Origin: Chloroflexota bacterium
GTDB taxonomy: Bacteria; Chloroflexota; Dehalococcoidia; Lucifugimonadales; Lucifugimonadaceae
Length of the DNA: 35,899 nucleotides
Direction: 5' to 3'
NCBI GenBank assembly: GCA_002718415.1
Contig: PBEM01000012.1
Coordinates: forward strand, 86,648 to 122,546
The notes below the pieces were generated by a model that saw nothing but the letters and a program-made list of their open reading frames with translations, was not told the origin of the DNA and ran no database searches. The position numbers and the translations under genes were made by a program. Shown here in pieces: positions 11,353 to 21,877 of the stretch. Position 1 is the first letter of the stretch. Every line of letters starts with the position of its first letter.

Positions 11353-12432
11353 TTATGTAGATGATTTTATAATTTTATTCGTAATTCTATCTATAACAGA
11401 GTTATATGATTCTAAAAATGATCTAATCCCATCTGCTAATAATTCATTGGTAATTTGATTAACAGATAAACCATCTTTTTCTAAATTATTAAAATATCTA
11501 TCTACATTAGTATTATTAGTTAATTCATCTTTTATTTTTGCAGATTGTAATAACGCTTCTAAAGTATTTTCCGGTAAAGTATTTACGGTATTCGGTCCCA
11601 TTAATTTCTCCACATATAAAGTAGGAGAATATGATGGATTTTTTACACTAGTAGAAGCCCATAATGGACGCTGAACCTGTCCTCCTTTATTTCGCAGATG
11701 ATCAAAATCATTTCCAAATAAATCTAAAAATAATTCATACGCCTTATATGCATTAAAAATCCCAGATTTCCCTTTCAAAGAACTATCATTCAAAAGTTTA
11801 TCTACCGCAGTATCAAGACGACTTACAAAAAATGACGCCACAGAAGCAATATTACCTAAATTTTTCCCACCTGAATTAATATAATCATTCAAACCATCTA
11901 TATATGCTCTAGCAGAACGAATATATGATTCTACAGAAAAAAGTAAAGTGACATTTACATTTATACCTAAGGAAATTAATTTTCTTATTGCTACCGATCC
12001 AGATTCAGTTCCAGGTACCTTTATCATAATATTTGGCCTATCAATTGAATTCCAAAGACGTATACCTTCTTCAATTGTTAATTCAGAATTGTTGGCTAAT
12101 TTAGGAGAAACCTCTATACTTATATACCCATCTTTATATTGAGTTTTTTTATATACATTAATCATTAAATCAGCTGCAGATTGAACATCTCTAATCGCTA
12201 TAGCTTCAAAAATTTCTTCAGAGTTCTTTCCTTCAAGGTGTAATTGCTTTATTTGATTATCGTATAAATCAGTTTCAGAAACTGCTTTATCAAAAATAGT
12301 AGGATTCGAAGTTAAACCCGAAACACCTTTTTTTATTAAATCTGATAATTGACCCGATTCAAACATATTTCTTGAAATAGAGTCTAACCAAATTGATTGA
12401 CCTAATAAATTTATTTCATGTATTTTAGTCAT
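11353..12432 (-). CDS. tal: Transaldolase
   Basis: Pentose-phosphate enzyme transferring a dihydroxyacetone unit between sedoheptulose-7-phosphate and glyceraldehyde-3-phosphate. At 359 residues it matches the longer actinobacterial/cyanobacterial type. Diagnostic stretches are SIWLDSISR (14-22), KKGVSGLTSNPTIFDKA (34-50), SIEVSP (105-110) and the Schiff-base lysine K138 in NIMIKVPGTESG; GINVNVTLLFS and VASFFVSRLD follow. RPLWASTS(V)KNPSY near residue 255 is also typical. No glucose-6-phosphate isomerase domain is fused to it. It is monocistronic, convergent with the VOC gene and divergent from the phytanoyl-CoA-dioxygenase remnant. Confidence 0.95.
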   Translation of the reverse strand: MTKIHEINLLGQSIWLDSISRNMFESGQLSDLIKKGVSGLTSNPTIFDKAVSETDLYDNQIKQLHLEGKNSEEIFEAIAIRDVQSAADLMINVYKKTQYKDGYISIEVSPKLANNSELTIEEGIRLWNSIDRPNIMIKVPGTESGSVAIRKLISLGINVNVTLLFSVESYIRSARAYIDGLNDYINSGGKNLGNIASVASFFVSRLDTAVDKLLNDSSLKGKSGIFNAYKAYELFLDLFGNDFDHLRNKGGQVQRPLWASTSVKNPSYSPTLYVEKLMGPNTVNTLPENTLEALLQSAKIKDELTNNTNVDRYFNNLEKDGLSVNQITNELLADGIRSFLESYNSVIDRITNKIIKSST

Positions 12433-12532
12433 TCTAAATTATTTAAATTAATGGAAAATATAAATTATAAGTTTTTAGATTATATAAGTATACTAATGCT
12501 ATATTTAGAATACCTAAATAATTGTTCATTAT

Positions 12533-12538
12533 AAGGAG
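12533..12538 (+). promoter_or_regulatory. Strong Shine-Dalgarno before the truncated PhyH ORF
   Basis: AAGGAG lies 6 bases before the ATG at 12545. It is one of the best ribosome-binding sites in this window, which shows that the 5' end of this gene is intact even though the coding region is largely missing. Confidence 0.75.
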
Positions 12539-12544
12539 AAATAT

Positions 12545-12688
12545 ATGGATGAATTGCAAAAATACCTTTTTGACTTAAACGGCTATATTATTATCCCTAA
12601 TGCGATAAATAAAAAATTTCTAACTAAAAGACAAAAATTATTATTTGAACCCCCTTATCGTCATAGAAGAAATTCATTTCTCAAATAA
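12545..12688 (+). pseudogene. Internally deleted phytanoyl-CoA dioxygenase (PhyH) remnant, 47 codons
   Basis: The short ORF begins with LFDLNGYIIIPNAI at residues 8-21, the usual opening of PhyH-family Fe(II)/2-oxoglutarate oxygenases. It ends with LTKRQKLLFEPPYRHRR at 26-42, which resembles the Q-x-x-LLEPPY tail I recall from many members of that family. Everything between, including the HxD...H iron site and the 2-oxoglutarate arginine, is absent, so it cannot be an active oxygenase. The simplest reading is an in-frame internal deletion of a roughly 280-residue gene. The promoter-proximal region and Shine-Dalgarno site are intact, and the GMC oxidoreductase starts nine bases after its stop. 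Alternatively it could survive as a small leader ORF coupled to that gene. Confidence 0.65.
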
Positions 12689-12697
12689 AATCAAATA

Positions 12698-14311
12698 ATG
12701 AATTATAACTATATCGTTATCGGTAGTGGTGCTTCAGGTGGAATTATAGCATCAAGGCTATCTGAAGATCCTAATATTTCAGTCATTTTATTAGAGGCAG
12801 GTAATGACTACCAAACAATTGACGATTTACCGGAAAATATTAAAAAGGGATCTGCATTAAATCTCCCTGATGGGCTCTCTGAAAATATCCAAAATTGGAA
12901 TTATACTGGATTCCGAAATAAAGATAATACTATCGATATCCCCAGAGGAAAAATCATAGGAGGATCTAGTTCTATAAATGGACAAATTTTTCTCCGTGGT
13001 ATGCCAGAAGATTATGATGATTGGGCAAATAAAGGGAATGATTTATGGTCATATAAAAATATCCTAAATTCATTTAATCGAATTGAAAACGATTTAGATT
13101 TTAGTGGAGATTTTCATGGAAATAAAGGTAAGGTGCCCGTAAAAAGATTCCCTAGAGAAAAGTGGTCTCCCACAGATAATGCATTTTATGAATCAGCAAT
13201 AAAAATGGGATTCCCTGATTGTCCTGATCAAAATAATCCAGATGCTACAGGTGTGGGACCTGTACCAATGAATAATACAGGATTATCACTTAAGAATTTT
13301 AGAGATGGTCTAAGAATGTCATCAAATATTGCATATCTTTCTGAAACAAGAGAAAGATTAAATTTAACTATCAGAGGAAATAGTCTTGTTAAAAAAATAC
13401 TTTTTCATACAAAGAAAAACTCAGACCCTAAAGCTTATGGTGTTCTAGTTCAATCAGGAGAAAAAAATTTTATTATTAATGGCGAAAATATAATCCTTTC
13501 TGCAGGTGCTATTGGATCACCACATCTACTTTTATTATCTGGAATAGGACCAAAAGAACAATTAAATCAATTCGATATCGAATTGATTAAAGATTTACCT
13601 GGTGTCGGTAAAAATTTGAGAGACCATCCCACAGTACTGCCTCAATATAAATTATCTGAAGATATTCCTAAAGACTGGTTTGGAATAACAGATAGAATAT
13701 GTTTGCGATATACAGCCAAGGGATCACATTTAAGAAATGATATGATAATTTTTGCAAATGCTGTAGTTGCCCCTAGAACTACAACCAAACAATATGCACA
13801 TTACTATGGAGCGGGAAATTCGAATAATGATGAAATGTTACTAATTTGGAGGGCTCGAGTCAATTTAGCAAAAGGGTCCGGTGAAATAAAATTAAATTCT
13901 AAAAATCCAAATGTTCAACCATATATAAATTATAATTTTTTAGAAGAAGAATTTGATAGAAAAAGGCTCAGAGAAGCTTTAGAAATAACATTAAATCTTG
14001 TAGAACATCCTTCATATAAAAAATGGATAACTGAAAGAATAACTCCTACTAAAGAACATCTAAGAAATGAAAATTCCATAGAAAAATGGATGATTGAAAA
14101 TGTATGTCACGGTCATCATATTTCCGGTACCTGCAAGATGGGACCTACTAGTGATAAAATGGCAGTAGTTAACCAATATGGTAAAGTTCACGGTGTAGAT
14201 GGTCTGACTATTGCTGATACTTCTATAATGGTAAATTGTATCCGAGCGAACACAAATGTAACAGCTATGATGATAGGCGAAAGAATATCCGAACTAATAC
14301 TCCAAGAATAA
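12698..14311 (+). CDS. GMC-family FAD-dependent oxidoreductase (choline/alcohol dehydrogenase-like)
   Basis: Flavoprotein of 537 residues oxidising a primary or secondary alcohol. The Rossmann motif GSGASGG (9-15) with E33 ends the ADP-binding fold; RGKIIGGSSSINGQIFLRG is the first GMC signature, and SAGAIGSPHLLLLSGIG the second. The active-site histidine is H474 in HHISGTCKMG, with the partner asparagine N520 in NTNVTAM. Family length is 530-560, so it is complete. The substrate is not evident; choline dehydrogenase, alcohol dehydrogenase and polyethylene-glycol dehydrogenase relatives share these motifs. It follows the deleted PhyH ORF by nine bases and precedes an ABC permease, probably in one transcript. 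Confidence 0.92.
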   Translation: MNYNYIVIGSGASGGIIASRLSEDPNISVILLEAGNDYQTIDDLPENIKKGSALNLPDGLSENIQNWNYTGFRNKDNTIDIPRGKIIGGSSSINGQIFLRGMPEDYDDWANKGNDLWSYKNILNSFNRIENDLDFSGDFHGNKGKVPVKRFPREKWSPTDNAFYESAIKMGFPDCPDQNNPDATGVGPVPMNNTGLSLKNFRDGLRMSSNIAYLSETRERLNLTIRGNSLVKKILFHTKKNSDPKAYGVLVQSGEKNFIINGENIILSAGAIGSPHLLLLSGIGPKEQLNQFDIELIKDLPGVGKNLRDHPTVLPQYKLSEDIPKDWFGITDRICLRYTAKGSHLRNDMIIFANAVVAPRTTTKQYAHYYGAGNSNNDEMLLIWRARVNLAKGSGEIKLNSKNPNVQPYINYNFLEEEFDRKRLREALEITLNLVEHPSYKKWITERITPTKEHLRNENSIEKWMIENVCHGHHISGTCKMGPTSDKMAVVNQYGKVHGVDGLTIADTSIMVNCIRANTNVTAMMIGERISELILQE

Positions 14312-14322
14312 TTAATAATTAA

Positions 14323-15117
14323 ATGTTTCATCTATATTTAAAAATTATTAAAGATTACTGGAAATCTACGACTTGGTTTTCTATAGGGATGGGATTAATC
14401 GGTATTTATGTAATAAGTGTATACCCTAGTTTCGAAAAATCTTCTGATGAATTTAATAAAGTCATAGGAAATCTTCCTGAAGCAATAAAAATCGTTATTG
14501 GAGAGGGATCTATGTCAAGTATTGAAGGATTTATGAATCTAGAAATATTTCAATTATTTGCCCCAATAGTTATATCAATTTATGCTGTTACAAAAGGAGC
14601 TAGCTCTATCGCAGGTGAAGAAGAATCCCATACTCTCGATCAATTATTATCTCTACCAATATCGAGAATTTCTGTAATATTACAAAAATCATTTGCATTA
14701 TACACGGGTGTTTTTTTAGTTTGTTTTGGTTTATGGATAGGAATAATAATAGGTGGAATAACAATAAATTATCCCTTATCTCAGATAAATATTATTGCTG
14801 CATCATTTTCTTTATTTATATATGGCATTAGCGTATCCTCATTAGCAATTTTTTTTAGCTCCATTAGTGGAAAAAGAGGGTTGTCTGCTGGATTAACATC
14901 TGCCATAATTTTAGTGTCTTATATTATTAATAGCCTAAGTTCGATAGTATCTTCACTTGAACCACTAAAATTTAGTTCGATTTTTTATTACTACAATGAA
15001 AATATTGTTATAGTAAATGGCCTAAAATTTAACCATATTTCAATATTATTTTGTATATCAATAGTATTTTTACTAATAGGAATTATAAAATTTAATTCAA
15101 GGGATCTTAATAATTAA
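14323..15117 (+). CDS. ABC-2 type transporter permease without adjacent ATPase
   Basis: Membrane protein of 264 residues with six predicted helices: one near the N-terminus (about 18-35), then a long extracytoplasmic loop, and five further segments (about 74-92, 122-148, 158-180, 190-212, 240-257). The loop-helix order and GEEESHTLDQLLSLPISR between the second and third segments are typical of ABC-2 export permeases (ABC2_membrane_3/5 type). No nucleotide-binding subunit lies next to it: upstream is the GMC oxidoreductase and downstream a convergent glycosyltransferase. It must use an ATPase encoded elsewhere, or the operon was rearranged. Substrate unknown. Its 3' end overlaps the convergent glycosyltransferase by 11 bases. 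Confidence 0.82.
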   Translation: MFHLYLKIIKDYWKSTTWFSIGMGLIGIYVISVYPSFEKSSDEFNKVIGNLPEAIKIVIGEGSMSSIEGFMNLEIFQLFAPIVISIYAVTKGASSIAGEEESHTLDQLLSLPISRISVILQKSFALYTGVFLVCFGLWIGIIIGGITINYPLSQINIIAASFSLFIYGISVSSLAIFFSSISGKRGLSAGLTSAIILVSYIINSLSSIVSSLEPLKFSSIFYYYNENIVIVNGLKFNHISILFCISIVFLLIGIIKFNSRDLNN

Positions 15118-17143
15118 TTTTTAGAAAAATGCTCCCTCTTGATAGTCCATTATCTATAGATATATCCTCCCAAGTAGCAATTATTCTTAGTTTTTCCATT
15201 TGATCCTTCGGAAAAAATTCTTTTTGTAAATTATTTTGAGGTAACATTCTATCTCTATCGTTAGAAATATAAAAAACATATTTATAATTATCAACTAAGT
15301 TATCAAATGATGAATTCGTGAAAATCGGATCTCTTCCAGAAAAACCATTCATTGAAAAAGCATTAATATCTTTAATAATGAATAGAGAGGCTTCTCGAGC
15401 TCTAGAAGTTATAACGACATATTGTTCTTTATTTAAGTTTTCTTTATTTACAATATTTTTTATTTTTTCGAAATATATTTCCGAAGGTGAAATATTAAAT
15501 ATTACTGGTACTCCATCATAATTTTGAGAATTTGAAATTAGTGGAGGGGTAATTGGTAAATTTCTTCCTTGACCAGCTATATTTCCACCTGATCTAAAAC
15601 CTATAACAGATGGTAAAAAAATTATTGTTATAAAACCAGTAACAAGTAAACACTTACCTAAATAATTATATAGATTATTTTTACCCAAAAAAGAAAACAT
15701 CAAAATAGAGATGACAATAGATACAACCATAATCACTCCAGATATTAATCTGCCTGATAAATCACTCCCCCATAAAATTTGTGTTACTACTATCATAATC
15801 ATCCCTATTGGAATAATTTGAATTGGAAAAGTCCCATTCTTTACTTTCTCTAGTATTTCAGTAAATGCTATTCCAAAAACTCCTGCAATAGGAATTGACA
15901 AAGCAACAAGATAGTAAACATGAGTATCTGTAGCATTCGCTACACCAAAAATAAAAAATCCTAATATTAGCCAAAAAAACCACATGAAAGATTCTGAATG
16001 ATACTCATCTTTCTTAAAAAAATTGGTGATGTTTTTATAATTTTTTAATTTACTTTTGGATAAAGAACTAGATACATTAATTATCCCTAATAATATTGTC
16101 CATCCTAATAACCACCCCGTAGAAGCACCAATTCTTCCAAATAAAAGTCCTAAAATCCCATAACCTTGATCAAACATTTGTAAAGGAGCAACTCGTCCCA
16201 CTTGTGGTGGGGGTCCTTGTTGGGGACCTACTGATAATTGAGGTGGCCTACCTTGTGGTGGTATCCCTTGTGGTGGGGGTCGACCTACTGATAATTGAGG
16301 TGGCCTACCTTGTGATGGGGGTCCTTGTGGTGGGGGTCCTAGAAAACCTTCAAATCTATTAAATCCATTATATTTAAATACTAAAGTCCATATAGAGTTA
16401 TCAGATGTAGAACCTACCCATGGTCTTTCATTACTAGGAGTAATCCATACTATAAATACCCAACTAAATGAAATAATAGTAATTAATAACGATGTTAAAA
16501 ATAAATGTTTAATTTTCTTAAATAAATTTTCATCTTTAGATAAAAAATAATAAAGAAAAAAAACTGGTAACGGTATTAAGGCTACCAACATCTTAGTATT
16601 AAAAGCCAAACCTATAAACAAAGCAAAAGGAATAAGCCAAAATATATTATTAGATCTAACAGACTTTATAATAAAAAATGAAGAACAAAGTACTAAAAAC
16701 ATCATTAAAGCATCTGGTTCATTCCTACTATCAATTATTACCGATGAAGGAATCACACATAAAATTGAAGATGAAACCAAAGCTGAAATTCTACCAAAAG
16801 TAGGTTTGATTAAACTGTACAGAATTAATATAGAAATAATTCCTAAAATTGCTTGAAATATATTAACTGCCCATTTTTCCGTTCCAAATAAATATATTCC
16901 TATCCCCTGTAACCAAAATGCCAGCGGAGGTTTATCTACTGAAACTACACCTAAGGGATCAGATGATGCAAAAAGAAAATTATTCCAACTTTTAATAACT
17001 GAAAATGCTGTAGCTGTGTAATAAGGATTATCAAAATCATTAATCCTAGAAAATCTTAGAAAAGCTCCGATGAATAAAATGAACACCAACAAATAATCTA
17101 CTTTATTCGAATATATTATTCTCTTACGTATATTTATAAACAT
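15107..17143 (-). CDS. YkcB/ArnT-like GT39-family membrane glycosyltransferase with Pro/Gln-rich insert
   Basis: Polytopic membrane protein of 678 residues related to protein O-mannosyltransferase/ArnT enzymes that move sugars from polyprenyl-phosphate donors. The first loop carries INDFDNPYYTATA with the acidic residues expected at the catalytic site, then SVDKPPLAFWLQGIG, matching YkcB-type enzymes. Multiple helices follow, then a soluble C-terminal domain with AFSMNGFSGRDP, also YkcB-like. Residues about 269-316 are an insertion dominated by Pro, Gln and Gly encoded by tandem repeats; relatives carry a Gly-rich stretch in the same place between FNRFEGF and the following membrane segment. 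ATG 17143 is preceded by only a weak purine stretch. Acceptor unknown; lipid or surface-polymer glycosylation is likely. Confidence 0.87.
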   Translation of the reverse strand: MFINIRKRIIYSNKVDYLLVFILFIGAFLRFSRINDFDNPYYTATAFSVIKSWNNFLFASSDPLGVVSVDKPPLAFWLQGIGIYLFGTEKWAVNIFQAILGIISILILYSLIKPTFGRISALVSSSILCVIPSSVIIDSRNEPDALMMFLVLCSSFFIIKSVRSNNIFWLIPFALFIGLAFNTKMLVALIPLPVFFLYYFLSKDENLFKKIKHLFLTSLLITIISFSWVFIVWITPSNERPWVGSTSDNSIWTLVFKYNGFNRFEGFLGPPPQGPPSQGRPPQLSVGRPPPQGIPPQGRPPQLSVGPQQGPPPQVGRVAPLQMFDQGYGILGLLFGRIGASTGWLLGWTILLGIINVSSSLSKSKLKNYKNITNFFKKDEYHSESFMWFFWLILGFFIFGVANATDTHVYYLVALSIPIAGVFGIAFTEILEKVKNGTFPIQIIPIGMIMIVVTQILWGSDLSGRLISGVIMVVSIVISILMFSFLGKNNLYNYLGKCLLVTGFITIIFLPSVIGFRSGGNIAGQGRNLPITPPLISNSQNYDGVPVIFNISPSEIYFEKIKNIVNKENLNKEQYVVITSRAREASLFIIKDINAFSMNGFSGRDPIFTNSSFDNLVDNYKYVFYISNDRDRMLPQNNLQKEFFPKDQMEKLRIIATWEDISIDNGLSRGSIFLKINY
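16225..16314. repeat. Direct repeat (33 bases, 57-base period) in the glycosyltransferase gene
   Basis: The 33 bases at 16225-16257 recur exactly at 16282-16314, a period of 57 bases or 19 codons, encoding RPPQLSVG twice. Shorter G-rich copies of CTTGTGGTGGGGGTC occur nearby at 16201, 16268 and 16324. The tract is visibly G/C-richer than everything around it. Identical synonymous codons in the two copies point to recent duplication; the period keeps the reading frame. Confidence 0.9.
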
Positions 17144-20860: not shown

Positions 20861-21877
20861 ATGAATTCTTTGACTAAACCCAAAATAATAAATGAATATT
20901 TTCAAGAAAATGGATATGTATTAGTAGAGGATGTTTTAGATCCTAAGACAGTACTTGACCCTATAATTTCTGAATATGAAAAAGTGCTAGATAATTTATG
21001 TAAAGAATTGTATGAAAAAAAAGAAATAAAATCCTTATACAGTGATTTAGAATTTGATGAACGAATTATCAAAGTTTATAACGAAACAGGCAAAGATTAT
21101 GCTTACTATTTCGATTTTCATCTACCATTTAAAAATGTGAAACCTGATACACCATTTTGGTGTGGACCTGCTGTATTCAATGCATTAATAAATAAAAATT
21201 TACTAGATATTGTTGAAGAATTAATAGGTGGAGAGATTACATCAAATCCAGTACAACATGTAAGAATTAAACCACCTGAAAATAGACTACCTAAAGATGA
21301 AGATGGATTTCCATTAATAGGAGCTACTATATGGCATCAAGACCATGGAGTAGTTACTGAAGACGCAGATGAAACAGATATGATAACTGTTTGGTTTTCG
21401 TTAACTGATACACCTGTGGAAGCTGGCCCACTAAAAGTAGTACCTGGGTCACATAAAGGAGATTTACTTACTCATTGTTTAGATTATGAAGGAAATGGTA
21501 AAGAATTTAAAAAAGCACGACAAATACCAAAAAAATTATTCCAACATGAAGAAGGTATTCCTTTACCAATGAAACGTGGAAGTGCCATTTTTATGCATAA
21601 ACGTACAGTTCATTCATCTTTACCAAACGTATCTAATAGAATGAGATGGAGTTTTGACTTAAGGTATAACCCTACTGGTCAAAATACTGGAAGATCTATG
21701 TTCCCTGGGTTTGTAGCTAGAAGTAGAAATTATCCTGAATCAGAATTAAAAGATCCTGTTCTTTGGAATAATATGTGGTTAGAATGTAGAGAAAAAATGT
21801 CACACATAAATCAAGATGATTCTGATGATGTTAAATTTAGTAGATGGGCAGATGGACATCCAGATTGTGAAGTATAA
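20861..21877 (+). CDS. Phytanoyl-CoA dioxygenase (PhyH) family oxygenase
   Basis: Fe(II)/2-oxoglutarate-dependent oxygenase of 338 residues, slightly longer than the usual 270-310. It opens with INEYFQENGYVLVEDVLD, the same region preserved in the remnant at 12545-12688. Iron ligands are H159 and D161 in WHQDHG and the distal H251 in TVHSSLPN, and RMRWSFDLRY supplies the likely 2-oxoglutarate arginine. VEAGPLKVVPGSHKGDL between them is standard for the family. PhyH enzymes hydroxylate CoA thioesters, ectoine, phosphonates and many small molecules, and they are expanded in SAR202-type marine bacteria; the substrate here is unknown. Monocistronic by context. Confidence 0.92.
   Translation: MNSLTKPKIINEYFQENGYVLVEDVLDPKTVLDPIISEYEKVLDNLCKELYEKKEIKSLYSDLEFDERIIKVYNETGKDYAYYFDFHLPFKNVKPDTPFWCGPAVFNALINKNLLDIVEELIGGEITSNPVQHVRIKPPENRLPKDEDGFPLIGATIWHQDHGVVTEDADETDMITVWFSLTDTPVEAGPLKVVPGSHKGDLLTHCLDYEGNGKEFKKARQIPKKLFQHEEGIPLPMKRGSAIFMHKRTVHSSLPNVSNRMRWSFDLRYNPTGQNTGRSMFPGFVARSRNYPESELKDPVLWNNMWLECREKMSHINQDDSDDVKFSRWADGHPDCEV

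Follow-up and report, generated by a model that had tools for sequence, protein, structure and literature searches.

A 47-codon remnant of a PhyH gene upstream of a GMC oxidoreductase gene and its differently broken counterpart in a sister species

The 47-codon reading frame and its surroundings

The stretch of DNA analysed here, 35,899 nucleotides of a Chloroflexota genome and hereafter called the window, contains a 47-codon open reading frame (product MDELQKYLFDLNGYIIIPNAINKKFLTKRQKLLFEPPYRHRRNSFLK) between a divergent transaldolase gene and a gene for a GMC oxidoreductase, which is followed by an ABC-2 family permease gene (Table 1). All three neighbours have open reading frames with Pfam matches. 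The preliminary description of the locus was correct with regard to the frame, its AAGGAG and its ATG, as well as the GMC gene nine bases downstream (stop ending at 12688, ATG at 12698); the start coordinate that it gave, 12533, is the first base of the AAGGAG. A search of Rfam with positions 12300-12900 yielded no match, and a promoter and terminator scan of 12400-12760 yielded no terminator and one weak match on the minus strand, below the shuffle mean of 3.5.

Table 1. Features of the PhyH-GMC locus in the window
Feature	Coordinates	Strand	Basis and remarks
Transaldolase, divergent upstream neighbour, conserved flank	11353..12432	-	Pfam PF00923; synteny
Shine-Dalgarno-like AAGGAG	12533..12538	+	6 bases 5' of the remnant ATG; read directly
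PhyH (phytanoyl-CoA dioxygenase-like) gene remnant, 47-codon ORF	12545..12688	+	ORF, alignments, search
PhyH N-terminal end, residues 1-21	12545..12607	+	Aligned to L050, L051, L072 and others
A/T-rich stretch with the putative deletion junction	12608..12619	+	Alignments; inference
PhyH C-terminal tail, residues 26-47, LTKRQKLLFEPPY...	12620..12685	+	Alignments; tail in sister genome G001 is LTKRQKMLFERPY
GMC oxidoreductase, intact, 537 aa	12698..14311	+	Pfam PF00732 and PF05199; without a Shine-Dalgarno of its own
ABC-2 family permease, conserved downstream flank	14323..15117	+	Pfam PF12679; synteny

The translation start of the frame had also been called perfect. This holds for the sequence itself, but not for a conserved special feature, since a sister genome (G001) has only AAGG at the same place and a six-base Shine-Dalgarno match precedes just 5 of 178 gene starts in the genome of the window (G000), versus 22 of 3000 random positions. 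These counts come from the window and approximately 167 kb more of G000. Matches of at least five bases were found before only about 15% of the 178 starts, compared with 3% of random positions; the starts are crude, being ORF-based with some preference for those with a Shine-Dalgarno, and the fractions are upper-side estimates. Most G000 genes seem to start without such a signal.

Homology of both ends to PhyH and loss of the core

Residues 1-21 of the product align with the N-terminus, and residues 26-47 with the C-terminal tail, of a single PhyH subfamily, of which intact copies of 260-270 aa occur in related genomes (L050, L051 and L072); nothing lies between the two ends. The ORF was cut at residue 23, and both halves were compared with six intact PhyH proteins using 2000 shuffles for each. 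For the N-half (residues 1-23), none of the 2000 shuffles reached the observed score against any of the six proteins, the best score being 82. For the C-half (residues 24-47; best score 65), this was true of four of the six, the exceptions being L076 (9/2000) and L073 (2/2000). The best scores among the 127 other frames of 40-60 aa in the window were 34 and 36 for the N-half and C-half, respectively. A chance ORF was rejected on the basis of the shuffles together with these control frames.

A search of the whole ORF against 247 genomes of the order returned PhyH N-termini as the top non-self matches (E values of 1.6e-6, 1.1e-5 and 2.2e-5), as well as a weaker match to the PhyH tail of G001 (7.5e-4). 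Some match with E up to 10 was obtained in 58 of the 247 genomes, most of the weaker ones probably by chance. The proposal that a PhyH gene had been reduced to its two ends is thus borne out by alignments, shuffles and this search, in which both ends of the 47-residue product align with PhyH proteins. In Pfam (E up to 10) and NCBIfam, the 47 residues matched no family, and the curated score of PF05721 was not reached.

Approximately 214 codons are absent from the remnant, a size deduced from the length of intact relatives (about 261 aa), and the frame is kept. The alignment to these relatives agrees with the in-frame deletion and missing catalytic core noted before: the columns of the conserved H, H and R, which we take to be the metal-binding histidines and the 2-oxoglutarate-binding arginine, all fall in the missing part. 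If made, the product would lack any catalytic residue and the core of the fold. The NKKF at the junction may pair with the DKNL of the G001 tail; the junction itself is placed within the A/T-rich stretch (Table 1), and an intact sequence of the same species would be needed to define the exact base and any guiding repeat.

With regard to the subfamily, 19 of 19 ORFs (L070-L088) exhibit H-x-G at the place of what we take to be the HxD metal motif, namely HGG in 18 and HDG in the G001 fragment. A distal HGT and an arginine are kept, HGT or HGS having been part of the filter by which the ORFs were selected. Fe/2OG halogenases likewise lack this aspartate, and another acid may replace it in the H-x-G subfamily. 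The best-scoring PDB entry is presumably HygX, on which a literature search found nothing. The window also contains an intact PhyH gene of another subfamily 8 kb downstream (20861-21877, +; 338 aa), for which NCBIfam gives weak matches, one of them to TIGR01762 ('chlorinating enzyme'; 33.6 bits against a cut-off of 226). Among the papers listed in literature searches on SAR202 PhyH or phytanoyl-CoA dioxygenase, on SAR202 pseudogenes, and on gene remnants and coupling, none dealt with this locus. In SAR202 genomes, phytanoyl-CoA dioxygenase is described by Landry et al. 2017 (PMC5395668) as belonging to branched-chain oxidation. The link of the window to SAR202 comes from the preliminary description and agrees with the labels of the relatives recovered, 11 of 16 of which, with all of the closest among them, are assigned to Chloroflexi or Dehalococcoidia.

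The locus in the sister genomes

The genus was represented by three genomes, G000, G001 and G002, with completeness values of 74, 86 and 71%, respectively. G001 shows the same gene order as the window (transaldolase, PhyH, GMC, ABC-2 permease), its GMC oxidoreductase being 77% identical to that of the window. Its PhyH gene (L020 3142-3644, minus strand) is also broken, at other breakpoints: 15 N-terminal codons (MNKIQQYLFDLQEYI) are followed by a TGA, which overlaps the ATG (ATGA) of a 152-codon ORF corresponding to the C-terminal part of PhyH. This piece ends with LTKRQKMLFERPYFSNRNPL, 15 bases before the GMC gene, and at 21.8 bits just misses the Pfam PhyH cut-off of 22. The two ends of the window's remnant are homologous to PhyH and in the right order, and a relative has PhyH at the same place, as expected of a remnant of a PhyH gene.

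Each genome keeps codons that the other lost. The window retains IIPNAI after YI (residues 16-21), which is lost in G001 after EYI, whereas the core kept in G001 is lost in the window. The G001 deletion is therefore not ancestral to that of the window, and two separate deletions would be the simplest history; strictly, a smaller ancestral deletion common to both species, followed by further loss in each, would also fit. An intact PhyH gene beside the same GMC gene, which the preliminary description had proposed to look for in sister genomes, was found in neither: G001 has the differently broken copy, and in G002 (L069:1249-1495) the transaldolase gene adjoins the ABC-2 permease gene, with neither PhyH nor GMC there. 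The pair is thus not essential in the genus, and loss in G002 or gain in G000 and G001 is compatible with the data.

No intact PhyH of the subfamily was found in these three incomplete genomes. At the level of the order, 34 of 250 genomes have a match to the intact PhyH protein at E up to 0.001. In a survey of 99 loci, many with just 1.5-4 kb of flank and farther neighbours out of view, intact PhyH beside GMC was not encountered: four loci have both genes, all of them overlapping stretches of the G001 locus. A paralogue as the source of the remnant was rejected, as neither of the two other PhyH genes of G000 (the downstream gene in the window and C15:69144-69872) matches the subfamily protein at E 0.001.

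These comparisons bear on whether the assembler skipped the core of a full-length PhyH gene. G000 is a draft genome of 15 contigs and 74% completeness, which leaves some room for such an error, but the independent assembly of G001 shows the same gene broken elsewhere, and no other subfamily match was found in G000, where the skipped core might appear on another contig. We consider misassembly very improbable.

The retained ends show a coding-type substitution pattern, close to that of the permease and less constrained than that of the GMC oxidoreductase. Over the 35 end codons common to the window and G001, pN is 0.22 and pS 0.53 (dN ~0.26, dS ~0.94), values that combine the periods preceding and following the deletion. 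The intact permease gene has a dN of 0.25 and a dS of 1.10, and the GMC gene 0.15 and 1.73. Among 707 segments of 35 codons from these two genes, 137 have a pN as high as that of the ends. The data fit either a deletion that is recent compared with the species split or some continuing constraint. The deletion had been called fresh, which is plausible given these values, although they give no date.

The same pattern is relevant to the idea that the two PhyH ends form a functional microprotein, which could also draw on the good start signal and the intact frame. The low pN/pS of the ends, however, includes pre-deletion time, the 47 residues match no Pfam or NCBIfam family, and G001 cannot make the same product, given that its N-terminal fragment is 15 codons long and its tail remains joined to a long part of the core. 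As the sister products differ, a microprotein conserved in the genus was rejected, and a functional one appears extremely improbable.

Probable gene decay and the question of coupling to GMC

The observations are very probably explained by internal deletions through which a dispensable PhyH gene of about 260 codons has decayed in parallel in the two species, its ends being left passively between constrained neighbours. The common ancestor of both sister species would have had a PhyH-family oxygenase gene upstream of GMC, which would have become dispensable and been broken separately in each. In G000, one internal deletion of approximately 214 codons would by chance have brought the two ends together in the same frame, creating a 47-codon ORF that retains the original start signal and stop. 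The ends would persist because a deletion could survive only if it left intact both the promoter side and the start of GMC, nine bases off. The remnant itself probably has no function. Some observations speak against decay: the frame was preserved, the start signal is strong and the ends are still coding-like, which fits continued selection or a recent deletion; in addition, most gene losses left no detectable remnant.

The latter was seen in the syntenic part of approximately 203 kb of G000 and 400 kb of G001. Of 60 G000 genes with conserved flanks in G001, 58 are conserved and two are not; for 58 G001 genes with conserved flanks in G000, the corresponding numbers are 52 and six. Detectable leftovers are the minority among these eight differences: two leave a tail (0/200 shuffles), namely PhyH in G000 and a glycosyltransferase-like gene in G001, and the other six show no significant end (200 shuffles). 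The second case (L020:451-700, +) is a gene of 678 aa of which the C-terminal tail is left (residues 625-677, 44% identical; 0/500 shuffles), a possible N-terminal end not being significant (35/500). That a second gene in this part of G001 has likewise been deprived of its core speaks for the decay reading. The gene is intact in the window at 15107-17143 (-), its product being presumably glycosyltransferase-like. A low-complexity stretch in the interior of this protein is rich in repeats of the PPQGRPPQLSVG type.

A different role for the remnant was also suggested in the preliminary description, that of a retained micro-ORF coupled to GMC. Ribosomes finishing on the remnant would initiate on the GMC gene, and deletions blocking this path would be selected out. 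The geometry is suitable, with the GMC start nine bases past the stop in the window and 15 bases in G001. No Shine-Dalgarno precedes GMC in the window, as computed, or in G001, as judged by eye, and the ATGA overlap in G001 could let restarting ribosomes reach the tail. Nevertheless, a GMC gene without a Shine-Dalgarno is ordinary, since 30 of 45 crude gene starts that follow a same-strand gene at a distance of 0-20 bases have no match either, and the start signal of the remnant differs between the two genomes. Furthermore, when random internal deletions were simulated in seven genes of the window (27,525 trials), the path to the tail stayed open in 42% (33% in frame, 9% by restart). An open path in both of the two genomes, as seen, would therefore arise by chance with a probability of about 0.18. 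Coupling was thus rejected as a demonstrated feature, what is seen being a geometry with a 42% chance per deletion. The proposal is compatible with the data without being needed to explain them, and we regard it as unlikely.

A broader version would be that, in this marine lineage, selection filters decaying first genes of operons, so that only deletions leaving a translated path survive and dead genes, still carrying their original start signals, live on as coupling mini-ORFs. The PhyH-GMC locus would then illustrate two routes, in frame and through an ATGA restart. We consider this generalization unlikely as well. If coupling were true, gene remnants would be working operon parts in compact genomes, and many small ORFs would need re-examination. 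Decay of a dispensable gene remains our preferred reading: the remnant has the look of common gene decay, and none of the findings calls for a new micro-gene. Even a short ORF preceded by a fine start signal can be mere debris, and the modest value of the locus is that one gene is seen cleanly broken in two different ways in sister species.

Compared with the PhyH family (PF05721; L050, L051 and L072), the remnant has ends that align, QKYLFDLNGY... at the N-terminus and LTxRQKxLFExPY at the C-terminus, but is without the core codons and every catalytic residue and lies below Pfam detection. The G001 fragment is the same gene with the same neighbours and is likewise broken; it differs in consisting of 15 codons and a TGA followed by a C-terminal piece that restarts at ATGA. 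Finally, the remnant resembles the bacterial pseudogenes generally known to arise by internal deletion, in that its core is lost, its ends are left, its neighbours are intact and an intact homologue exists elsewhere, whereas it differs from them in its preserved frame, which leaves an ORF that retains a start signal.
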